From IMG/VR virus record IMGVR_UViG_3300013132_000173, positions 1 to 30,571 of that record: a stretch of 30,571 bases of DNA; one strand, given 5' to 3'. The translations under genes and the position numbers were made by a program. This stretch comes from a virus. Below the pieces are notes generated by a model. It saw only the letters and a program-made list of their open reading frames with translations. It was not told the origin of the DNA and made no database searches. Position 1 is the first letter of the stretch. Every line of letters starts with the position of its first letter. Positions 4,557 to 29,246 of the stretch are shown piece by piece.

Positions 4557-5303
4557 TTAGGCGCTGAAGAGCGAGGTCGTCGCCTTGGCGGCTTCGTTCG
4601 CCTTGGGAGGAGTGCCAGCCGGCCGGCCGGTTTTGCCACCCTGGGCGCTGTTGCCGTCCTTGATGCTGCGGCGATCCTGGGTGTTGCCGGTATTGCGCTC
4701 GACCCAGATGCCGTAGAAGGCCGCCGTCTGGACGCCGCGCTTGGCCTCGACCACGGTCAGATGGGACGGATGGTGGAAGATCTTGTCGGTGACGTTCTCT
4801 TCACGGGTGTCCGCGGTGTCCTCGTACTCGCCGGTCGACGTGTTCTTGGCCTGCTTGTTCTTGAGGTGCTTCTGGATCCCCAGGGTGACTTCACGTCCCA
4901 ACAGATCGACGAGCATCGGAACCGCAGTCGGGACCTCCTTCTTCTGGTCGAAGTCGTAGAGGTTGATCACCTTCTCCTCGGCCGTCTGCTCGGAGAGGGG
5001 CTTGTTGGTGGTGACCAGGCACAGGTCGTCGATGACGGTGAAGCCGGGCATGGCGTACTTCTTGTTGTCCTTGGTGTAGAAGTTCAGGTCATCCTTGTTG
5101 GTGACCCAGAAGGTTTCCCGGTATTCCCCGTCGGGGAATTCCATGACCAGGCTGACGCTCCGAGCCTTGGAGCTCGTCGCCTTGCCGACATAGGCCAGCT
5201 TGATCTTGCCGGTGTAAGCTCCGGACTCACGGACCCGGAAACCGCCAACGCGGTCCTGGTTTTCCTCGAGCCCAGCAGTCGAGACATTTCCGAAAACGTT
5301 CAT
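4557..5303 (-). CDS. Single-stranded DNA-binding protein (N4 gp45-like)
   Basis: A 248-residue protein starting at ATG 5303 after AAGGAA. The N-terminal half (GGFRVRESGAYTGKIKLAYV, SVSLVMEFPDG, TFWVTNKDDLNFY) and the C-terminal low-complexity tail (GGKTGRPAGTPPKANEAAKATT then SLFSA) fit the N4-type SSB, not the bacterial OB-fold SSB. In N4 this protein coats ssDNA for replication, stimulates recombination and opens the hairpin promoters of the virion polymerase; its C-terminus contacts host RNA polymerase for late transcription. Position (last of the core replication genes, before the convergent point) agrees with N4. Identification is from layout and remembered motifs. Confidence 0.85.
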   Translation of the reverse strand: MNVFGNVSTAGLEENQDRVGGFRVRESGAYTGKIKLAYVGKATSSKARSVSLVMEFPDGEYRETFWVTNKDDLNFYTKDNKKYAMPGFTVIDDLCLVTTNKPLSEQTAEEKVINLYDFDQKKEVPTAVPMLVDLLGREVTLGIQKHLKNKQAKNTSTGEYEDTADTREENVTDKIFHHPSHLTVVEAKRGVQTAAFYGIWVERNTGNTQDRRSIKDGNSAQGGKTGRPAGTPPKANEAAKATTSLFSA

Positions 5304-5353
5304 CAAATTTTCCTTGTTGTGAGCGGGTTGAGAGACTTCAGCGAAGATGATCG

Positions 5354-6147: not shown

Positions 6148-8301
6148 TTAGGCCGTCTGCTGGTATCGCTTGGCGACGGTCACCATGATGGTGCTGTCGA
6201 TTTCCTTCTCGTCCATGGGGGTCGAGAGCTTCTTGTTGAAGGCGTGAACCTGCGTATTGATGGACGGCAGGTCCCACCCCGCATCGATCAGGCACAGAGC
6301 GTACTTGATCATCTGGTTGTTGCGGTTGCCCGAGGCGATGCGCTGAGCAAACCAGCGTTCCAGGTTGTCCAGAGACTGCAGATTTTGGATCTGCTTCTGT
6401 CGTTGCTCGTTGCGGCTCGTCTTGGGGATGAAGTCCAGAACATCCAGGATTGTGCCATCCAGGTTGTAGAAGTGGGAGCCACCATGAAAGGACTCGGACT
6501 TCTTCTCCCGCTTGTCGTAGCTCTCATCCGTCTGGAACGGTAGCCAAGCAAAGATCCCCTGCATGAACTCCTTGTACTCATCGTTGTCGAGCTGCAGCCG
6601 ATAGTTGATGGGCAGCAGCATACGAAAACGATTGGCGCCGTCGGTATGCCGCTTGGTCGTGTAGGTGAGGAACTTGTAGTCCTTCATCAACTCGTGAGCG
6701 GCGCTGAGGCTGACGCCGCCATCGACGTCGAACGCGATCATGTTGAAACCAGCGATCACGTTCTCCTCGGAGCGGTGTCCTTGGACAAAATGATGGTTGG
6801 CCCAGTGCATACCTTCAGCCTGGGTCAGCAAGTGCAGCTGATCAAACGGTGCCTCCTCGGCCAGATAGTTGTAGGCCCAGTGGGTGGAGTAGGAGATCAC
6901 GATCTTGCTCAGATCGGTCTCCTTGAGGGTCTCACCCTTGAAGAGTTCGATCCCGTCCACGAAGGATTTCTTGATGATGATATGACGCTTGTAGCCCCAG
7001 GCCGTGGCCAGGGTCATCATCTCGTTGCGTGCAGACTGGCTTGACTTGTAGAACGGCAGGTTCTCATGCAGATCCGCGTGAGTGACCTCGGTGCCGATCT
7101 GGGCGATGTACTTGGCCAGTTTGACGTAGGTCTTCTCTCGGCTCAGAATGGTCTGGAAAGAGGAACCAGACTCCTCCACCAGCTTGATGGCCGAGTGGAG
7201 GTGCACCATTTCGACCATGGTGGAGCCATCAACGAACGCCAGGGCGCCGGCAAGCTTGAGGGCCTTGGAATGGCGGTGCTCGAGCTCCGCTTTGCGGATT
7301 TCCTCGTGTTCCGCCAGCTGGCTGGCTCGAAATAGGCAATCGTCATGATACTCGATCAGGGCGATGCCGACCGTGTCGTCCACTTCCATCTTCCAGTTGA
7401 AGACGGCCGGATCCGCAAGCCGGTAGAAAGCCTGGGTCCACTTGGTCACAGCAGCACTGTTGGCCGGATTGGTGCGCAGCTGGTACTTCTCCTCAGCGGT
7501 CATGGACGTGGAGTCGATGGACTTCAGTCCTATCCCGAAGATACAACGACGTGCATATCCGGTCTCGAGCAGCGAGTAGAACTCGTTCTCGGTCGGCCCG
7601 CCGTCGAACAGCTTGGAGGGCGTGCCGAACAGCAGCATGTTGGTCGGGGTGGTCCCATCCAGCTCCTCGCCCCGCTGATTGTCAGAGGTGTTCTTGACGA
7701 GCTTCTGCTTGATCTGTCCGGTGTCGTAGAGCTCAAGGAAAGCGGTCAGGACCTCGGTTTCACGCAGGAGGTTCGAACCGATCTCGTCGATCTGCATGTT
7801 GATCGAGCCAGCGTTGGCCATCAGCAGTTTCTGTCGCAGCTGCTTGACAGCCGGCGTCGTTCCAGAGTCGAAGGTGAACGGGTAGGCCCCGTAGGAGCGG
7901 TACTCCTTCGACGCCCGCTCGAACTCCTCGTTCTGGTCAGTTCCGTTCCTGGCCGCCCGATTGTTGGCGATGACCCAGAGGTTCTGCTCGGCAAGTACCG
8001 GCAGGGTGTCCTCCATGAAGCGGGTCTTGAACCCCTTCAGCAGTTCATTTTCGATGATCGTGACAGAGTGACCCTTGCCGAAGCCAGAGGGAGCCAGGTC
8101 AATGGCGTAGACATTGACCGGCAGCTCACCGCGGTCCTTGGTGACAATGGTGGCACGCATGGTGGCGGCCATCTTGCCGAGGAAATAGGCAATCTCGACC
8201 CGGAAGAAGCTACGATCCAGCTGCTGGGTCTTGGCACACAGGACGTCGACGAGTTCCTCAATGGCCGGATGGTGAGGGATTGCCGAAAGGTTAAGCGACA
8301 T
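6148..8301 (-). CDS. N4 gp42-like primase/P-loop replication protein
   Basis: A 717-residue protein starting at ATG 8301 (MSLNLSAIPHHPAIEEL); the open frame upstream to 8604 overlaps the nuclease gene and is Ser/Arg/Pro-rich out-of-frame sequence. FRVEIAYFLGKMAATMRATI leads to a P-loop-like PSGFGKGHS at 71-79. Later parts (TFDSGTTPAVKQLRQ, MQIDEIGSNL, MLLFGTPSKL) fit a primase-helicase-like ATPase of the DUF3987 kind, with a C-terminal half of unknown fold. N4 gp42 has the same length range and place and is required for replication as a putative primase. The start overlaps the end of the nuclease gene by 11 nt, so the two are co-translated. Confidence 0.8.
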   Translation of the reverse strand: MSLNLSAIPHHPAIEELVDVLCAKTQQLDRSFFRVEIAYFLGKMAATMRATIVTKDRGELPVNVYAIDLAPSGFGKGHSVTIIENELLKGFKTRFMEDTLPVLAEQNLWVIANNRAARNGTDQNEEFERASKEYRSYGAYPFTFDSGTTPAVKQLRQKLLMANAGSINMQIDEIGSNLLRETEVLTAFLELYDTGQIKQKLVKNTSDNQRGEELDGTTPTNMLLFGTPSKLFDGGPTENEFYSLLETGYARRCIFGIGLKSIDSTSMTAEEKYQLRTNPANSAAVTKWTQAFYRLADPAVFNWKMEVDDTVGIALIEYHDDCLFRASQLAEHEEIRKAELEHRHSKALKLAGALAFVDGSTMVEMVHLHSAIKLVEESGSSFQTILSREKTYVKLAKYIAQIGTEVTHADLHENLPFYKSSQSARNEMMTLATAWGYKRHIIIKKSFVDGIELFKGETLKETDLSKIVISYSTHWAYNYLAEEAPFDQLHLLTQAEGMHWANHHFVQGHRSEENVIAGFNMIAFDVDGGVSLSAAHELMKDYKFLTYTTKRHTDGANRFRMLLPINYRLQLDNDEYKEFMQGIFAWLPFQTDESYDKREKKSESFHGGSHFYNLDGTILDVLDFIPKTSRNEQRQKQIQNLQSLDNLERWFAQRIASGNRNNQMIKYALCLIDAGWDLPSINTQVHAFNKKLSTPMDEKEIDSTIMVTVAKRYQQTA

Positions 8302-9274
8302 AGTAGAGGTCTTTCTGCTTGCAAGCATTGAAGGCCGGACAGAATTCACAGGCTCTGACCTCACCAGGAACGGCGATGACAATGCCTTTCCCGCCCTTCG
8401 ATGCCATGAAGGCATGAGCTTCCGCTTTGTCGTCGAAATTCTTGGTAGACCGGCCCGTCGTTTTGGTCGGATCCGAGTAGTACTTGTAGACGGTCTCGCC
8501 CCGCCAAAGCTCCTTGTCGGTACAGAACGGGATGCTCTCGTCCGGAGAGTCCCAGTACTGTTGCAGTTGAAGCAGCTTGTTGCGGATGTAGTTCTCGGTC
8601 TCATCGATCGAGGGCATCTTGACCGGATACTCGAGAGCCTTGGTCTGGGGGTAGTCCTGGTCCCCTCTGGCTCGAGCTTTCTGCCAGTCCGTGAAGATGA
8701 ACTGGATGTAGATGTGATCGTCCGTGATCAGCTCGGGATTGAGCCAACGATAGATGCCCCCCTGCCAGGCATAGTCCGCATCCTTGCGCCCCAGAAGGTA
8801 CGCATAGACTGATGTGGACTTGGCATCGAAGAGCCTACCGTCAATCACCTGGTCGAACTTGCCACCGATCTTGTAGGTGGTGCCGTTGACCTCGATCTCC
8901 TTGAAAGCCCGCTGCTCCATCCAGATCGGGATCAGGTCTGGATTGCTTGCAAGCTGCTCCGGGCTGGGGTTCACCTGGACGTTGGTGTAGATACGCTCAG
9001 GATATCCCAGCTTCTTCATGGCCCAGGATCCCGAATGTACCCACGCCTTCTCGATCGAGTCGTGGATGGCAGTGCCCATTCGGGATGCAAGGAAGGCTGA
9101 GATATCGAGCTCTCGATCAGCTTGGTTCACCCTCCTGGAAAGCACAAGCTGACGGGTGGACTTCAGCAGGCTGGTGGCGGAGATGTAGTTCGGCTCGTCG
9201 ATGTAGTCGTACTCATCGTGAAGCAGCCACACGGCAAGTGGCAGCGAGATGCCGTGAATATTGGTCAGTTTCAT
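8291..9274 (-). CDS. PD-(D/E)XK nuclease, Cas4/RecB-like (N4 gp43-like)
   Basis: A 327-residue protein. ATG 9274 is chosen because TGAGGCC lies just before it; the TTG at 9286 is inside that site. His 71 (AIHDSIE), then GGKFDQVIDGRLFDAKS (137-153) with Asp 141, Asp 150 and Lys 152, form the PD-(D/E)XK nuclease core. The C-terminus has a cysteine cluster (CEFCPAFNAC) which, with a possible further Cys, recalls the iron-sulfur site of Cas4/AddB-type exonucleases, though the N-terminal Cys of that site is not evident. N4 gp43 occupies the same place. It probably degrades or processes DNA ends during replication or recombination. Confidence 0.8.
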   Translation of the reverse strand: MKLTNIHGISLPLAVWLLHDEYDYIDEPNYISATSLLKSTRQLVLSRRVNQADRELDISAFLASRMGTAIHDSIEKAWVHSGSWAMKKLGYPERIYTNVQVNPSPEQLASNPDLIPIWMEQRAFKEIEVNGTTYKIGGKFDQVIDGRLFDAKSTSVYAYLLGRKDADYAWQGGIYRWLNPELITDDHIYIQFIFTDWQKARARGDQDYPQTKALEYPVKMPSIDETENYIRNKLLQLQQYWDSPDESIPFCTDKELWRGETVYKYYSDPTKTTGRSTKNFDDKAEAHAFMASKGGKGIVIAVPGEVRACEFCPAFNACKQKDLYYVA

Positions 9275-10532: not shown

Positions 10533-13214
10533 TTAGGCCGCGAGCTTGTTCACATGTGCCTCAAAAGCCTCTCGGATCTGCTCCTTGGAGGCGCCATTGG
10601 GGATTGAGGCTTCCTGGCTCCAGTCTGGATAGAAGATCGAGAACTCTCCACCGAGTTTGACCTCATCATGCCAGATGTCCGGGTGATCCTGCCACTCGCA
10701 CGCCTTTACCAGATGGATATTGGCGTAGTGCATGGCATCGATGTTGTCGCGAACCAAGGTGTAATTCGCGTCGTGGATCTGGGCGCAGGGCTTGATGTCG
10801 TGTCTGAATTCACTGGTACGCACTCCGACCATGAATTCAGACATCGCCCTGCTGTTCAGCAAGCACCAGGACTGGCCTAGGGCATTTCCGGCGGTCCTTC
10901 CTTCAGCCTCGGCCTGAAAAGGAGTCTTGGAGTTCCCCAGTACGACCTGGTGCAGCATAGGGGTTCTAACCCGAAGACCAAAAGCTGCGGTGATGTAGCC
11001 GGTCTTGCTGGCTTCCTTAAGCTTGCCGGCCACCCAGTCGTCAGAGACCTTGTAAAGCTCATGGTATTTGGTCTCGACCATTTGGGCCTTTTCCTGAGCC
11101 CATCCCAGCTGCTGCATGATCCCGATATAGGTGCCACCATAGGTCAGCAGGAATGTCGGTGTCTTGGACTCCTGCCGGAATGATGGGTATTTCTCCTGGA
11201 TCGAGTTGATCAGTTCCACTGTCATGGTGATACCAGAGAATTCCGTCATCTGATCCGAGAAGTAGCTGTAAGCCCGGAGAGAGTGTCCATCATAGCCGTC
11301 GGTGTACACCTTCAGCTTGTTGGGATCCTTGGTGGTGAGAGCCGAAATACGGTCCTCAAGGGACGCGAAGTCGATACCGCAGAAAAACCAGCCAGGTGGG
11401 GCCTGGAAGCAGTACTTGATGAGCTTGCCCAGGCTGAGCTTGCCCTTCTTGGCGAAGCGCTTCAGAAGATCGAATTGATCTATCAAGTGCTGCATCAACG
11501 TCATGACGACATTGGCCGGAATGTTCTGCAGGTTCGGCTTGCTCGAAGAAAGCCGTCCAGAGACCGTACCACCCAGATTGAAGTTGCCGAACAGCCAGTA
11601 CCATCCGTCTGGTCCAAGCTGGGCGTTCTCGAGAGCCGGTATGAAGGTTTCGAGAATGGTGCTCACCGCCTTGAACTCGATCAGGGCAGTGAGAAACTCT
11701 CGCACATCGGCATTCTGGGTGTGGTTGATCAGCTTCTCGAGGGTCTTTCCACCTGTCGCCGGTTGCTTGGTGTCGGTGCTGTCGATGACGGGCAAGCCCA
11801 GATCGTCATAAAGCAGGCGTTGCAGTTGAGAATCGGAGTCTGGGTTGAAGGTAATGGCCTTCTTGGTTGGCTCATGGGTAAGAGCCAGTTCGGCCATCTC
11901 TTGAACCGTCATCCTTTTTTTGACCCACTCCTCGTTCTTTTTCGAGGTGTAGTTCTCCAGGAGCTCGTACTCGAACTGCTGTATCCTGGGAAGCTGGAGC
12001 ATCCTGGATCGGGCGTTTTCATAGACGACCAACAGGATAGACTTTACCTCCCTCACCCGCTCCATGTTGATGGGCATGCCGGTCAGCTGCATCTGAACGA
12101 TGTCAACCACAGCTGGCTTGAAGATGGTTTCGTAGATCTCGAGCTGCTTGTCCCGCACCATACGTTGGTAGTGCTTTTCGTGGACATGCCAGGTGGAGAG
12201 GCAATCCACCAGGTTGTACTGCATCAGCTGTGGCCGAGGGATCTTGCGGATGTCCTGGATATCATCCTGGGCGTAGTTGCCAGCGTATTCCTGAGCCTGG
12301 ATCTTGAGTTTGAGCTCGTTTCCGGCGCACGAATTGGTTGCCAGATACGTGATGAGCTTGGTGTCATCCCAGTTGCGCAGCATGATCTGCAGGCCCTCGA
12401 GCAGCCCCTCGTTGTCGAGAAGATTGCTCATGAAAAGCTGGTAGATCAGCACATACACATCGAAGGTGATGTTGTGGTAGATGGCCTTGCGTTGAAAGGA
12501 CCTGAAGAAGCCGCGGAGGAGTCTCCGCATAAGGTCCGAGTGTTCTGGGTCATCTAGAATGTCGACCGCAAAGCAAACTCCCTCAGTCTTGGACCACGCA
12601 AAAGCGATGGTCCCAATTCCGGCATCGTAGTGCTTCAGGGAAAACGTCTCGATGTCGATCGTGAGATCGCGATCCATCTGCAATAGCTTGTCGATCCATT
12701 CAACAGCAGCCTCGGCCGTGTCGATGTACTCAGCAAAGCTGATGATGCCACAACCTGGGTCCCGATAGGTTCCATTCATCCAGGAGATGATGGCATTGAT
12801 GCCGGCACTGATCTTCTGCCCAACTTTCACAGAGTCGTAGAACGCTGTCCGGTAGTTGGGCACATAGACGACTTTCCAGGCACCATAGGTCGTGTCTAGA
12901 ACATAGCCTAGGACAGGATCGATTTTGGAGACCTTGGTGAGGGTCTTGAAGTACTCACCGTCTCCGACAATCAGGATCTCAACACCCAGATCGACCAAGG
13001 TAGGCCCCAATTCCTCGACGATGTAGGCTTTCTGCTCCACTGACGGAGTCTTCTTTTGACCCGGGGTTTGGTGCAGATCGATGACGATGATGTCGTCTTC
13101 GTTGAGTCCGTAGGGAGTAATGTACTCCCGTCGGATCTCGTCCCTGCGGATCTCATTGACGAGGATGGCGATCTTGTAGGTAGCCTGATCGGGTCCGAAA
13201 GTGAGGTGCCGCAT
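10533..13214 (-). CDS. DNA polymerase, family A with 3'-5' exonuclease (N4 gp39-like)
   Basis: An 893-residue replicative polymerase. Exonuclease domain: DIET at 187-190 (ExoI), HNITFDVYV near 247-255 (ExoII) and YNLVDCLS at 333-340 (ExoIII), so proofreading residues are present. Polymerase domain: SGRLSSSKPNLQNIP at 552-566, motif A DFASLEDR at 615-622, motif B with Lys 684 and TYGG at 691-694, and motif C with His-Asp at 814-815. No 5' nuclease domain is visible. Length and layout fit N4 gp39. ATG 13214 follows AGAGGA and an ATTATC site (13247). Its neighbours, the gp38-like gene and helicase, keep the N4 order. Confidence 0.95.
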   Translation of the reverse strand: MRHLTFGPDQATYKIAILVNEIRRDEIRREYITPYGLNEDDIIVIDLHQTPGQKKTPSVEQKAYIVEELGPTLVDLGVEILIVGDGEYFKTLTKVSKIDPVLGYVLDTTYGAWKVVYVPNYRTAFYDSVKVGQKISAGINAIISWMNGTYRDPGCGIISFAEYIDTAEAAVEWIDKLLQMDRDLTIDIETFSLKHYDAGIGTIAFAWSKTEGVCFAVDILDDPEHSDLMRRLLRGFFRSFQRKAIYHNITFDVYVLIYQLFMSNLLDNEGLLEGLQIMLRNWDDTKLITYLATNSCAGNELKLKIQAQEYAGNYAQDDIQDIRKIPRPQLMQYNLVDCLSTWHVHEKHYQRMVRDKQLEIYETIFKPAVVDIVQMQLTGMPINMERVREVKSILLVVYENARSRMLQLPRIQQFEYELLENYTSKKNEEWVKKRMTVQEMAELALTHEPTKKAITFNPDSDSQLQRLLYDDLGLPVIDSTDTKQPATGGKTLEKLINHTQNADVREFLTALIEFKAVSTILETFIPALENAQLGPDGWYWLFGNFNLGGTVSGRLSSSKPNLQNIPANVVMTLMQHLIDQFDLLKRFAKKGKLSLGKLIKYCFQAPPGWFFCGIDFASLEDRISALTTKDPNKLKVYTDGYDGHSLRAYSYFSDQMTEFSGITMTVELINSIQEKYPSFRQESKTPTFLLTYGGTYIGIMQQLGWAQEKAQMVETKYHELYKVSDDWVAGKLKEASKTGYITAAFGLRVRTPMLHQVVLGNSKTPFQAEAEGRTAGNALGQSWCLLNSRAMSEFMVGVRTSEFRHDIKPCAQIHDANYTLVRDNIDAMHYANIHLVKACEWQDHPDIWHDEVKLGGEFSIFYPDWSQEASIPNGASKEQIREAFEAHVNKLAA

Positions 13215-17828: not shown

Positions 17829-18265
17829 CAGACGTTGATCCTCTCGCAGAGATTATTGATGGTGTTGTCGTTCATTAGGGCGTTTTTGCCGCCATCGGTG
17901 GCAATCTCGAGCAGTCCATCGTTGATGTAGGCAGCGCCGTCGTTCACCACGTCGTTCCACAACCGCAGGGCAGCGAGGATCATGTCGCGTTCAACAGGCT
18001 TGAGCCGCAAATCCACGTAGTCGTAGGCATCGTGGATCTGTTTGACTGCTGCCTCGAAGTTCTCAGCCGTGATCTCCTTGGTGCGATCTTCGAAGAACTC
18101 AGCGTCGTCGAACTCGGGGACGTTTCCGTTGGGTGTCCAGGTTACGATGTTTCGGGTCGTCCAGGCGCTGGCGCGCTGTAGTGCTTCAGCTGGATCAGAC
18201 GCTTCGACGACCCCACTGTATTCGATGTAAGCATCCTGGCCTTTTACGACCTCAAAGAATGGCAT
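17828..18265 (-). CDS. Hypothetical protein, 145 aa
   Basis: Not recognised. ATG 18265 begins MPFFEVVKGQDAYIEYSGVV, followed by EASDPAEALQRASAW and an acidic middle (VPEFDDAEFFEDRTKEI), reminiscent of small phage proteins with a sandwich fold at the N-terminus. The C-terminal half is helical (DMILAALRLWNDVVNDGAAY). No catalytic motif. It overlaps the end of the GcrA-like gene by 14 nt and is coupled to the 32-residue gene downstream. Confidence 0.65.
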   Translation of the reverse strand: MPFFEVVKGQDAYIEYSGVVEASDPAEALQRASAWTTRNIVTWTPNGNVPEFDDAEFFEDRTKEITAENFEAAVKQIHDAYDYVDLRLKPVERDMILAALRLWNDVVNDGAAYINDGLLEIATDGGKNALMNDNTINNLCERINV

Positions 18266-18776
18266 TGGGATTTCTCTTGATGGTGTTGCGATCCAGATGG
18301 TGGGGGCAGTACCGCGCACCTGATCCGCACGGCATTCCGCAAAAGAGGTGCGTCTCACCTTTCTTCGGATTGTTGACTGGCCAATGACACTGCTGCTGGG
18401 TAAGCTGTTCCAGCGTCAGATGCATCGAGGCCGCGTCGTACTCCACACCACCGGGAGGGATTCGAACCTGGTGTGCAGGGTGCTTAGGAGGGGCAGCCTC
18501 CATCGTCACTGTCTTGGACAAGACAGCCACCTTGTTTGACCCCTTTGGGATCTTGCGCCGCGTCTTGTCTGCGTGTGGGTGTGTGTCGCCATTGAGAGGG
18601 TGCGTCTTCTTCAGCACCGGATTGCGGGTGTACAGTCCCAGCAGAGAATTGCGGCTGACGGCGTACCCCTGTGTCGACGCGATCTTGCCTGCCAGGGTAG
18701 TTGCAGAGCATCGCTCGAACCAATGCTTTTGGATCAGCTCAATCCTCGAAGTCCGATCAAGAGACTGCCAGGTCAT
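18252..18776 (-). CDS. GcrA-family cell-cycle regulator
   Basis: A 174-residue protein. ATG 18776 follows AGAAGG. Residues 1-50 (RIELIQKHWFERCSATTLAG, YAVSRNSLLGLYTR) form the N-terminal HTH that in GcrA recognises methylated GANTC-type promoters. A long basic linker follows, and the C-terminus has the GcrA sigma-factor-binding pattern: LTLEQLTQQQCHWPVNNPKK, HLFCGMPCGSGARYCPHHLD, with Cys 130, 146, 150 and 157. GcrA binds the primary sigma factor and activates transcription in alphaproteobacteria. A phage copy could steer host RNA polymerase. The linker gene sequence contains a tRNA T-arm-like GGTTCGAATCC (about 18451-18475). It overlaps the deaminase gene by 20 nt. Confidence 0.82.
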   Translation of the reverse strand: MTWQSLDRTSRIELIQKHWFERCSATTLAGKIASTQGYAVSRNSLLGLYTRNPVLKKTHPLNGDTHPHADKTRRKIPKGSNKVAVLSKTVTMEAAPPKHPAHQVRIPPGGVEYDAASMHLTLEQLTQQQCHWPVNNPKKGETHLFCGMPCGSGARYCPHHLDRNTIKRNPNAIL

Positions 18777-19212
18777 CTGAAACCTTCTCGGGATGGTAAG
18801 GATTGAGCTGGACCCAGGCTTCACTGAACATCTGGGTGGCGGCCTGGAATTCCTCAGAAGGCATGCTTGTGGCACCGGGACCGAAGACGACCTTGGCAAT
18901 TCCAGCCTGGATCAACGTTCGGGCACAGGATGAGCAGCACATGTGAGTCACATAGACAGTGCAGCCTTTGGTATGGATGCCTTCTCGAGCCGCAAAGGCG
19001 ATCAGGTTGGCTTCGGCATGGGAGGCGAACAGATATTTGGTTGGCCTCTGACGACGAGCCTCGGTATCGATCACGCCCTTGGGCGGACCGTTGTAGGCTG
19101 TGAGGCGAACCTCCCCATCGGATCCAACGAGAATGGCGCCCACCTTGGTGCTGTCCTTGGACTTGAGGGCGGCGTGTTGGGCAAAGCCCATGTAGTAGTC
19201 CTGCCAGTTCAT
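18757..19212 (-). CDS. Deoxycytidylate (dCMP) deaminase
   Basis: A 151-residue protein starting at ATG 19212 after CAGGAACC; the frame runs upstream into the tRNA-like element but that part is not protein-like. Zinc site: HAEANLIAFAAREG at 65-78 gives His 65 and catalytic Glu 67; CSSCARTLIQAGI from 93 gives Cys 93 and Cys 96. The N-terminal STKVGAILVGSDGEV and YNGPPKGVIDT fit the dCMP deaminase family and its substrate loop. It converts dCMP to dUMP for ThyX, in the same direction downstream. A 20-nt overlap couples it to the GcrA-like gene. Confidence 0.9.
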   Translation of the reverse strand: MNWQDYYMGFAQHAALKSKDSTKVGAILVGSDGEVRLTAYNGPPKGVIDTEARRQRPTKYLFASHAEANLIAFAAREGIHTKGCTVYVTHMCCSSCARTLIQAGIAKVVFGPGATSMPSEEFQAATQMFSEAWVQLNPYHPEKVSDDLAVS

Positions 19213-24140: not shown

Positions 24141-24936
24141 TTAACTCAAGGCGTAGTTCGCCTCACGGACGTCGTGAGCCAGGTGCGGATCGAGCTTGCC
24201 CGCCTGGATCGGGCGCTTGCAGATCTGGGAGACGATCGAGCTGAGCATGTCAGACTCGGCAATCTCGGCCAGAATGGTGTTGTACTGCCGGCGCAGATCG
24301 TTGCCGTAGTTGGGCAAACACCTGAAGCAGTCATGGATCGAGATGACCTGGAAAGGTCTGTCCGGCAAGCTGTCGATCAGCTTGGAGATCGCATTGTGTT
24401 CAACCAGGCCCATGTTGTCGATGTCCAGGTAGTTGAGGATCCTTGCTGAGAGGAAGCCGGTATCCTGGTAGTGCTGCCAGAGCGTCTGAACCAGTGCATC
24501 CTGCGGCCGATGGGTGTTGCGTCCCCTGGCTCCGACAGCAATGTGGTTGGTCAGGGTTGCTATCTTCGCTGGGTCATAGCTGCAACGACGCTGCATCTCC
24601 CGAACCACCATGCCGTCGATGGAGTGAACCATGTTGGCGCCGAGGGATCGACCACCTTCGATGGGGATGTTCTGGTACTGGGTCACCTCGAAGGGCTCGT
24701 CCAGGAAGTGCACGATCTCTGTGACCGGACCCATGACCTTGATCTTGACATGGAAATTGTCCGGCAGGATCCAGGAGTTTTCGAGCGCCGTCTTATCCCA
24801 GATGGCGAGCATGGTCTGATTGATCTCCCAGGCCCCGGGAGCATTGCTCTCCACGGTGTCGTAGAAAACCTGCAGCAGCTCCCCGTCACCAAAGACTCGC
24901 TTCGGCACAGCCGTCGAGCTGTAGAAGGCCGTCATA
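24141..24936 (-). CDS. RNA polymerase RNAP2, exon 2 (C-terminal part; N4 gp16-like)
   Basis: Exon 2 begins at base 24936 (T) and supplies the last base of codon 137 and residues 138-401 of the spliced protein. It carries the rest of motif B (Met138, Tyr142 in MTAFYSS), then GRSLGANMVHSIDGMVVREM and the motif C strand VISIHDCFRCLPNY, with the second catalytic Asp at 339. These match the T7-like single-subunit polymerase C-terminal half. The ATG at 24935 gives an open frame by itself, but no ribosome-binding site precedes it and the product would lack both motif A and most of motif B. The spliced length (401 aa) matches the N4 RNAP2 size. It pairs with RNAP1 to make the middle polymerase. Confidence 0.9.
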
Positions 24937-25261
24937 CAATACGTTCAACAGAGGTCGTTAATCTCTGCCCGCAGCTTTACCTGCAGCTCCATGTTACCAA
25001 GGAGTTCGGACTATATCATGCACGGTTTTCCGTGCCCTCGCGCTTCGACCCACTTGGGCCTACTCTACTAGGTTCAGCTTGTGCTGCCGTTCGATAGTCT
25101 CTGCACTTTCCGATTGTTCAAGACAACCTCACACATCATGTCTTGAACATAGAAACCTCCAGTTGAGTTTTCTATGTATCGGCTTAGCTCATGATTGTCC
25201 AGGATTAGCTGGGTTTTCCATGAGTTCACGAGGTTTAAAGGCCACCATGATTTAGTGGTTA
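24937..25261 (-). ncRNA. Group I intron in the RNAP2 gene
   Basis: A 325-nt ORF-less intron. P1: exon end GGCCAU (25267-25262) pairs with the guide GGUGGCC (25246-25240), with the required U-G at the splice site. P10: exon 2 UAUGA pairs with UCAUG next to the guide. P7: GACTA (25099-25095) with TAGTC (25013-25009) inside the classical GCAGAGACTA and GATATAGTCC elements. P8: GCACGG-AAAA-CCGTGC (25035-25020). The last intron base is G. A 10-bp GTTCAAGACA/TGTCTTGAAC hairpin (25148-25116) lies upstream. Splicing restores the frame exactly (410 + 796 nt = 402 codons). No homing endonuclease is inside; the flanks have none that I can recognise. Confidence 0.93.
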
Positions 25262-25671
25262 ATGGCCTGCTTGGTCAGCTTGCGGTCGATCTTGGCGGTG
25301 CCGCCCATGGTAGCAACCATGTCCTGATAGATGGACACATAGGCGTCTCGCCGATTTCCGGTGTCGACGACGTTGGAGATCTCCGCGGCCCTGCGATCGC
25401 ATGCCAGGACAGCCAGGATCTGGATCCCGGAAGAAGTGGCATCGAGGGAGATTGGATAGCCGGAAGGCTTTCCGGCCTTGGCATCCTCCCAGGCCAGCAT
25501 GCCAGCGTAGAAGAGTGCGGGCTCATCGGCCTTGGAAACCAGGTTCTGCAGGTCGTGTTCGTTGGCATCGAACCAGGCGAGGCGCTCATCCCAGGTGAGC
25601 TTGTCGAGCCCGAAAGAGCCGGCGATGTCGATCTTCAGATACTCGCGTCCAGTGAAGGTCTGGAAGGTCAT
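25262..25671 (-). CDS. RNA polymerase RNAP2, exon 1 (N-terminal part; N4 gp16-like)
   Basis: ATG 25671 follows AGAGG. Exon 1 encodes residues 1-136 and two bases of codon 137. GREYLKIDIAGSFGLDKLTW matches the linker after the T7 DxRGR block; SLDATSSGIQILAVL (76-90) is motif A with catalytic Asp 77; and KIDRKLTKQAI (127-137) is the first half of motif B with Arg 130 and Lys 134. Without splicing, translation stops three codons into the intron, right at motif B. Spacing R130-K134-M138-Y142 after splicing equals R627-K631-M635-Y639 of T7 polymerase, though the usual Gly after Tyr is Ser. Together with RNAP1 it should form the heterodimeric middle RNA polymerase. Confidence 0.9.
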
Positions 25672-27915: not shown

Positions 27916-28722
27916 TTATTCGACGATTTTCTGGTTCGCGAACTCGATCACCGCCTTGTTCCAGGTCGTGCCCTGGTAGTTGACGACGTAGCCCTGGCAG
28001 TAGGTGCGACCACGCTTGTCGATCTTGTGGGTCAGGTAGAACTCCCCACCGTTCGAGATGCCCAGATGGTCCATGACATCATGAGCCGTGCGATCATATT
28101 TTTCGAACGCCTTGACTCTCTTCTGGAATTCAGCCGTATCCTCGTCCGGCTTGGGCTTGTCGAGATGGCGCCATCGGTTCTTGATCGTGTCGGCAACCTG
28201 GCGGTTGATCCGGAACTTCACCTGGTTCACCTGGTTCAGATGATCCAGGCAGACATCTTCATCGTGGTGGTTGTGCTTGAGGATCACCGATCCCTTGCCG
28301 GTGTAGTAGCCGGTATCGGAGTTCGTCTCGAGTGTCAGGGGAGGCACGATCATAGGCAGTGGGTACTGATACCGATCGATGTCCTCCTGGACGTCTTCCG
28401 AGATGTTGAACCTCAGTATGAATTGACGGGTGACCGGAGACCAATCGACGAGATCTGCGATGGTCGCCTGAGTGATGGCATCGACCGTCTTCTGGGCATC
28501 GTCGTTGAAGTGCCTCCTCAGCGCACCAACCAAGGTCGGCAGCGTAGCCCGCTTGTGCAGGACCATCTGTACGAGGAGAGCAAATCCGAACTTGAGGTCG
28601 ATGCCGACCTCGGTCATGTACTCCTCAAAGCTGGAGTCCTCTCGGAACTCCTGCTCGATCCGCGGCAGGAGCTGGTTTTTGTGGAAGAGCTTCTCGATCT
28701 CGACCTGAAAGTCACTGAGCAT
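27916..28722 (-). CDS. RNA polymerase RNAP1 (N4 gp15-like)
   Basis: A 268-residue protein starting at ATG 28722 after CAGGAGAAG; an in-frame ATG at 28761 would add 13 residues without a good ribosome-binding site. N4 RNAP1 is about the same size. The C-terminus THKIDKRGRTYCQGYVVNYQ and KAVIEFANQKI corresponds to the T7 polymerase DxRGRxY block just before the palm, where N4 splits its polymerase into two polypeptides. The N-terminal part (VEIEKLFHKNQLLPRIEQEF, EYMTEVGIDLKFGFALLVQM) is the helical N-terminal/thumb region. It must pair with RNAP2 (24141-25671), which holds the catalytic residues. The two genes lie 2.2 kb apart with seven small genes between. A terminator lies just upstream. Confidence 0.88.
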   Translation of the reverse strand: MLSDFQVEIEKLFHKNQLLPRIEQEFREDSSFEEYMTEVGIDLKFGFALLVQMVLHKRATLPTLVGALRRHFNDDAQKTVDAITQATIADLVDWSPVTRQFILRFNISEDVQEDIDRYQYPLPMIVPPLTLETNSDTGYYTGKGSVILKHNHHDEDVCLDHLNQVNQVKFRINRQVADTIKNRWRHLDKPKPDEDTAEFQKRVKAFEKYDRTAHDVMDHLGISNGGEFYLTHKIDKRGRTYCQGYVVNYQGTTWNKAVIEFANQKIVE

Positions 28723-28781
28723 TGATTTCTTCTCCTGGTTCGGCCTGATGTGAAGCGGCATCGGTCTTGGGGGTGGATACG

Positions 28782-28807
28782 AAAAAGGCCGCTGAGGGGA
28801 CAGCGAC
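28782..28807 (-). terminator. Intrinsic terminator upstream of RNAP1
   Basis: On the minus strand GGTCGCTG (28807-28800) pairs with CAGCGGCC (28794-28787) around TCCCCT, with one mismatch, followed by TTTTTCG. It ends the early unit 28863-30571 about 60 nt before the RNAP1 start, so RNAP1 needs read-through or a promoter in the gap 28723-28781, where I see no clear motif. Confidence 0.8.
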
Positions 28808-28862
28808 CTGAGCTCGAATAGGATCGGCAGCACGAAGACGAGCAGCCGGATGGCTGGGTGCA

Positions 28863-29246
28863 TCAGAACATGCCCCAGTAGCGATGCTTCACCCCCAACC
28901 AGGGTTCCCACATCTTATCGAAGAGACAGTTGTCTGGTGCAGTTGTGAAGAAAGGAGCGATGTCCTGGTCACGAAAACCAGCAAGACCGCAACCGATGCG
29001 AGTGACCTGGAAGGGCATATCGGGGTTCTGTCTGGCATACTTGAGAAACAGGTTGACGTACCCGTTGATCGCATGCAGCGGCAGCGATTGAAGTTTGCTA
29101 TTCTTGGTCGGAATAGCGAAGGACTGCCCCATGGGACCATATCCGATATGGGGTATAGCTCCGTACTCACGCAGAGCAGTCAATGCGGCCCCAGCACCGT
29201 GACGGCCGGCCAGATTGGAACCAAAGACGAAAATGTGATCTCTCAC
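28863..29246 (-). CDS. Macro-domain-like phage protein (A1S_2505 type)
   Basis: A 127-residue protein with GTG start 29246 after GAGGGG, overlapping the upstream stop (GTGA). FVFGSNLAGRHGAGAALTAL, then PMGQSFAIPTKN, then VTRIGCGLAGFRDQDIAPFF match a phage and bacterial family with a macro-like (ADP-ribose-binding-like) fold. Macro domains bind or hydrolyse ADP-ribose derivatives, so countering ADP-ribose-based defence or controlling phage ADP-ribosylation is possible, but binding is not proved for this branch. The gene is the last before the terminator upstream of RNAP1. Confidence 0.65.
   Translation of the reverse strand: MRDHIFVFGSNLAGRHGAGAALTALREYGAIPHIGYGPMGQSFAIPTKNSKLQSLPLHAINGYVNLFLKYARQNPDMPFQVTRIGCGLAGFRDQDIAPFFTTAPDNCLFDKMWEPWLGVKHRYWGMF

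Follow-up and report, generated by a model that had tools for sequence, protein, structure and literature searches.

The gene for RNAP2 (N4 gp16) examined here is broken inside motif B, between an Ile and a Met codon, which raises the question of whether a complete polymerase can still be made from it and, if so, how such an interruption came to lie there. The DNA analysed (the window) is a 30,571-base IMG/VR viral fragment, a single metagenomic contig from a schitovirus (N4-like), with the interrupted gene on its minus strand. Other genes of the window, likewise on the minus strand, are:

4557-5306: single-strand binding protein
6148-8604: primase
10533-13214: DNA polymerase
27916-28911, minus strand: RNAP1

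A GcrA-like protein (PF07750, 2.1e-14) is also encoded at 18252-18899 on the minus strand. Members of the GcrA family are alphaproteobacterial cell-cycle regulators and the nearest relatives of the window's RNAP2 belong to rhizobial phages, which together suggest an alphaproteobacterial host for this phage.

The interrupted gene and its joined product

The locus comprises two exons and an insert:

25262-25671, minus strand: RNAP2 exon 1, an open frame of 136 codons plus 2 nt, ending ...AAG CAG GCC AT
24937-25261, minus strand: predicted group I intron of 325 nt, IA type with P7.1/P7.2, omega-G at 24937
24141-24936, minus strand: RNAP2 exon 2, starting T ATG ACG, with Met138 of motif B

Every reading frame of the insert contains several stops, and the frame of exon 1 meets one at intron nucleotides 8-10. 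Removal of the insert restores the host gene as a stop-free ORF of 401 residues, as a preliminary description of this DNA had proposed and as its coordinates bear out. The joined product preserves R-x3-K-x3-M-x3-Y and keeps the register of RHph_X3_15 (61% identical), OLIVR1 and others, and its motif B aligns without a gap against intact relatives (KQAIMTAFYSS in the window versus KKAIMTSFYSS). It matches phrog_2051 over residues 1-401, and a profile built from the joined sequence together with seven relatives aligns end to end (1-404) with the solved N4 RNAP2, 6dt7_B. In the RNAP2 profile search, yeast mitochondrial RNAP places its ITRKVVKQTVMTNVYG at the interrupted segment, which supports the identification of this segment as motif B. 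Both exons are free of frameshifts and 75-76% identical to the RNAP2 of the closest intact relatives, L011 and L012.

Group I architecture of the insert

The Rfam search that had been suggested as a check returned RF00028 (Intron_gpI) over the full length of the insert (1-253/253, E 1.5e-11) with a score of 49.8 bits, which misses the curated cutoff of 50 bits by 0.2 bits and hence does not count as a match at the gathering threshold. Besides the insert, no further RF00028 match occurs across the whole contig. A FinP match in P6 (18.3 bits against a cutoff of 45, E 0.85) was taken as a chance product of the P6 hairpins and set aside. The fold energy of the insert has a z-score of -5.2, with none of 100 shuffles equally low, and the minimum-energy fold displays P3, P4, P5, P6, P8 and P9 unaided. 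The structural elements are listed below, where two-sided changes refer to base pairs altered on both strands among introns at the same site:

25252-25254, minus strand: in-frame UAA stop at intron nucleotides 8-10, at the same position in 5/5 same-site introns compared
25246-25250, minus strand: UCAUG, P10 pairing with exon 2 UAUGA
25240-25245, minus strand: internal guide sequence GUGGCC, forming P1 with exon 1 GGCCAU, with a U-G pair at the splice site
25227-25233, minus strand: 5' strand of P3, CCUCGUG, pairing with 25036-25042 CGCGAGG; two-sided changes in 3/7 pairs
25170-25224, minus strand: P4, P5 and the start of P6, from the Rfam match and pair counts
25095-25099, minus strand: 5' strand of P7, GACUA, pairing with 25009-25013 UAGUC; invariant in 5/5 same-site introns
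25047-25086, minus strand: P7.1 and P7.2 hairpins, with two-sided changes
25020-25035, minus strand: P8 hairpin, two-sided changes in 5/6 pairs
24949-25004, minus strand: P9, P9.1 and P9.2, from structure comparison and pair counts

The features of group I membership (the P3-P8 core, the P7 helix, the P1 U-G pair, P10 and the terminal omega-G) are thus present, and P1, P10, P7, P8 and the terminal G lie where the preliminary description had placed them. The P7.1/P7.2 extension between P7 and P3 assigns the insert to subgroup IA, at a resolution that does not separate IA1 from IA2. By analogy with the T4 td intron, the in-frame stop would keep ribosomes that arrive from exon 1 from entering the ribozyme core.

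Introns at the same site in other phages

Searching the insert against phage genomes identified introns in the Achromobacter phages JWAlpha/JWDelta and the Burkholderia phage HN02, and an alignment-based scan of IMG/VR added two further RNAP2 carriers, L083 (near-identical in L161) and L159. A search with the homing endonuclease gene (HEG) of these introns added the Vibrio phages phi 1 and pVco-5 as well as the RNAPs of 42-45 kb T7-like phages, in which a motif B intron with an HEG occurs in Acinetobacter 4AB-P, Klebsiella HF0522, Pseudomonas Drael01 and Pectobacterium PPWS1, the last classed as Autographiviridae. In the introns at the same RNAP2 nucleotide, the P6 loop holds an endonuclease VII-like HEG (phrog_1035 for JWAlpha). 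In phi 1, pVco-5 and the T7-like carriers, with splice sites assigned by visual inspection of P1, the exon frame and ATG-AC, exon 2 starts one base before ATG-AC (motif B Met-Thr), and hence the codon and phase of insertion are the same in two phage groups. Rfam matches in these distant carriers reach 24.7-36 bits, no match being reported for the Vibrio phi 1 intron. A scan of genome contigs for the 3' junction returned no match. The impression that the site was new for an N4-like RNAP2 does not survive these searches, as the schitoviruses JWAlpha/JWDelta, HN02, L083, L159, phi 1 and pVco-5 share the intron nucleotide.

Several related elements lie elsewhere. In Acinetobacter phage XC38 (L164:1655-2588), a related HEG-bearing intron with an approximate 3' end lies among the Met-Thr-Leu codons of motif B, some 7 nt downstream of the position used in the window. 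A 309-nt HEG-less group I intron (L158:2182-2490, IMGVR_UViG_3300037010_000554; Rfam 74.6 bits) cuts a different phage gene in a motif-A-like DASA^S segment; the spliced product of 609 aa has RNAP-like motifs (KKAFTPMLYGSG, IHDAF), and the PHROG families matched by its exons are all of unknown function. In Pseudomonas pakpunavirus ph0034 (L156:1972-2704), an endonuclease VII gene and an intron core 71.5% identical to that of the window split the DNA polymerase gene, which indicates that DNA polymerase genes are also targeted by the same core family. In the schitovirus Shigella phage B2 (L010:2423-3131), an HNH endonuclease gene lies between the halves of the DNA polymerase gene in DNA similar to the 3' part of the window intron; because the endonuclease splits DNA polymerase, B2 was ruled out as an RNAP2 case.

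For covariation, four same-site introns were aligned with their endonuclease genes cut out, giving 77 base pairs including the P7 and P10 pseudoknots. Two-sided changes were found at 33/77 pairs and 99.3% of the cells were paired, either value being reached by 0/500 shuffles, while sliding the strands as a control left no more than 4 such pairs. The pairing scheme had been traced on the window sequence before counting, which favours it over the slid versions on cells paired but is not the source of the 33 two-sided changes. Being invariant, P7 contributes no covariation signal. Two P1 pairs show two-sided changes that include exon bases, so that the guide sequence tracks changes in the exon, L083 and JWAlpha/HN02 altering both sides relative to the window's GGCCAU/GUGGCC. 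Because independent same-site introns keep it by compensatory change, the structure lies far beyond chance, and the identification of the insert as a group I intron lying within motif B of an N4-like RNAP2 is strongly supported.

These data also bear on whether RNAP2 might instead be made as two assembling polypeptides of ~139 and ~264 aa, with the intervening RNA left unspliced. RNAP1 and RNAP2 already pair as a heterodimer in N4 RNAPII, exon 1 meets the stop at intron nucleotides 8-10, exon 2 opens with an ATG, and the authors who described JWAlpha left the function of its split gene open, all of which would suit such an arrangement. However, the break between the two polypeptides would fall within the motif B helix itself, inspection reveals no ribosome-binding site before the exon 2 ATG, a split RNAP2 without an intron was found at none of the loci examined, and compensatory change has preserved a ribozyme structure that extends into the exon-intron pairs of P1, so that two polypeptides are highly improbable. 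One metagenomic contig might raise the suspicion of an artefact of assembly or sequencing, or of a gene that has decayed and no longer functions, but introns at the same site in independently sequenced isolates and the well-preserved exons described above reduce this chance to a negligible one.

Remains of a homing endonuclease gene

The description of the insert as ORF-less holds in that it contains no functional ORF; two HEG fragments nevertheless persist in P6, listed here together with a hairpin:

25136-25160, minus strand: 5' vestige of the HEG, GGAGG and ATG inside the P6b hairpin, with the frame M-F-K-T-stop
25115-25149, minus strand: 11-bp perfect hairpin UGUUCAAGACA/UGUCUUGAACA at the point of HEG deletion
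25074-25136, minus strand: 3' vestige of the HEG, MCEVVLNNRKVQRLSNGSTS-stop, overlapping the ribozyme core

The 5' vestige aligns with the ribosome-binding site and start codon of the intact HEGs of L083, JWAlpha, HN02 and L159, and in the intact relatives the HEG likewise starts within the P6b hairpin and ends within the core. The 3' vestige corresponds to the last ~20 HEG codons, MCEVVLNNRKVQRLSNGSTS being identical to the C-terminus of the HN02 HEG at 15/20 positions (BLASTP, E 5e-8); part of this similarity falls within the ribozyme core, itself conserved for its own reasons, and the 26 nt outside the core beat 5000/5000 joint shuffles when scored jointly against four HEGs. About 160 HEG codons are missing in between, and the two remaining ends are mutually out of frame. 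No match to the phrog_1035 endonuclease was found in the 30.6-kb contig, itself a fragment. Where homing introns encode a homing endonuclease, the window intron thus retains terminal fragments only, and it is the single HEG-less allele of the motif B site in RNAP2 seen.

The order of events could in principle have been the reverse, a plain intron being ancestral and the HEG having invaded its P6 loop later in other lineages. The compact and stable P6 of the window would fit, as would the existence of HEG-free related introns such as that of L158 (Rfam 74.6 bits). This order is nevertheless unlikely, since the GGAGG-ATG of the HEG is retained in place, the C-terminal fragment outscores every joint shuffle in its match to four HEGs, and the mismatched frames of the two ends are what a deletion would leave. 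The window intron is accordingly best read as an HEG-deleted member of a homing-intron family, with the HEG probably present first and lost later, and it would capture the point in the life cycle of such introns at which the HEG has been lost but its two ends can still be read.

Taken together, the interruption of RNAP2 is very probably a self-splicing, HEG-deleted homing intron. Briefly, the intron would remove itself from the RNAP2 transcript through two guanosine-initiated transesterifications, joining ...GCC AU to U AUG ACG... and yielding the complete 401-aa RNAP2. The family to which it would belong consists of homing introns whose target is motif B of single-subunit phage RNAPs, reached by means of an endonuclease VII-like HEG located in the P6 loop. 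In the lineage of the window, an internal frame-breaking deletion would have taken most of the HEG, and the ribozyme would have been kept because the RNAP2 gene is broken without splicing.

Distribution and mobility

The comparison of RNAP2 homologues that had been proposed as a check yields relatives lacking the insert: RNAP2 is intact and intronless in 82 of the fetched RNAP2-bearing loci, including L011 and L012. Five of the 89 RNAP2 sequences placed in a tree are carriers, each among intronless relatives, and accounting for them takes five changes, no fewer than shuffled labels would need; this was a quick tree, and starred branches force the same five changes. Identity between the window and the other carriers amounts to 74-81% in the intron core against 56-63% in exon DNA, a difference that RNA constraint, which also slows change, may partly explain. 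The GC content is 48% in the intron versus 59% in the coding sequence, and this contrast, together with the conservation of the core, fits horizontal movement. Scattered carriers are as expected of a homing element, and the homing itself would have been driven by an HEG of the kind found in the relatives.

The preliminary description had further suggested that splicing acts as a timer of polymerase supply. An intron in a transcription gene whose core stays intact despite loss of the HEG might look like one kept as a regulatory delay. The distribution, with 5/89 sporadic carriers and intronless close relatives, lends this no support and argues that phages do well without the intron, and splicing would be selected in any case because the host gene must be restored. 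In N4, moreover, it is the virion RNAP that transcribes RNAP1 and RNAP2 early, and RNAP2 therefore need not make its own mRNA. A role as a regulatory delay is therefore very unlikely.

Competition over the polymerase gene appears to be a better lead than timing. Two phage groups with only distantly related polymerases have the insertion site in the catalytic motif B in common. Tentatively, motif B might serve N4-like and T7-like phages alike as a homing site, with the endonuclease directed against the polymerase gene of a co-infecting phage and an HEG-deleted intron serving as a resistance allele. If so, such an intron would fill the target site and shield RNAP2 from cleavage without the cost of an endonuclease, making the HEG-less intron of the window a possible protective allele. 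The shared site renders both a cross-family homing target and inter-phage RNA polymerase competition directly testable.

Comparison with known systems

A search of a literature collection with few subscription journals found no paper describing motif B as an intron site. The one paper found to mention such an interruption, Wittmann et al. (2014, PMC3915230), reported the interrupted RNAP2 of JWAlpha/JWDelta and asked whether it is still functional, in a text from which 'intron' and 'splic-' are absent; the present comparison bears on that question, since the interruption is built like an intron that can be spliced. The JWAlpha/JWDelta introns share the gene, the nucleotide and the guide-sequence logic with the window intron, which is ~75% identical to them, but are 805 nt long with an intact 186-aa endonuclease. 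Likewise, the intron of Burkholderia phage vB_BpP_HN02 (PP079243) lies at the same site and is 82.6% identical over 86% of the window intron, but measures 807 nt with a 187-aa HEG. PP079243 labels this HEG a hypothetical protein and has it flanked by two ORFs, of which the first is named RNA polymerase 2. PPWS1, 4AB-P, HF0522 and Drael01 have the same motif B codon and phase (V/L^ATG AC) and a related HEG, in another phage group with another RNAP and with more distant intron cores.

Other phage introns share fewer features. The group I intron of the N4-like phage pVa5 lies in a different gene, that for thymidylate synthase, and has an HNH HEG (PMC5746245). The DNA polymerase gene of Pf-WMP3 is interrupted by a group IA2 intron (PMC3428280), which resembles that of the window as an IA-type phage intron in a polymerase gene but differs in the polymerase concerned and in the presence of the HNH HEG I-PfoP3I. 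For competition, the relevant precedent is PhiPA3 gp210, encoded in a putative group I intron at a conserved site of the vRNAP beta-subunit gene, whose endonuclease was shown to cut the homologous RNAP gene of a competitor and to bring a competitive advantage (PMC11620839). Like the window, PhiPA3 thus has an intron at a conserved site of a phage RNAP gene, whereas its RNAP is multisubunit, its site is unrelated, and its HEG is still present.
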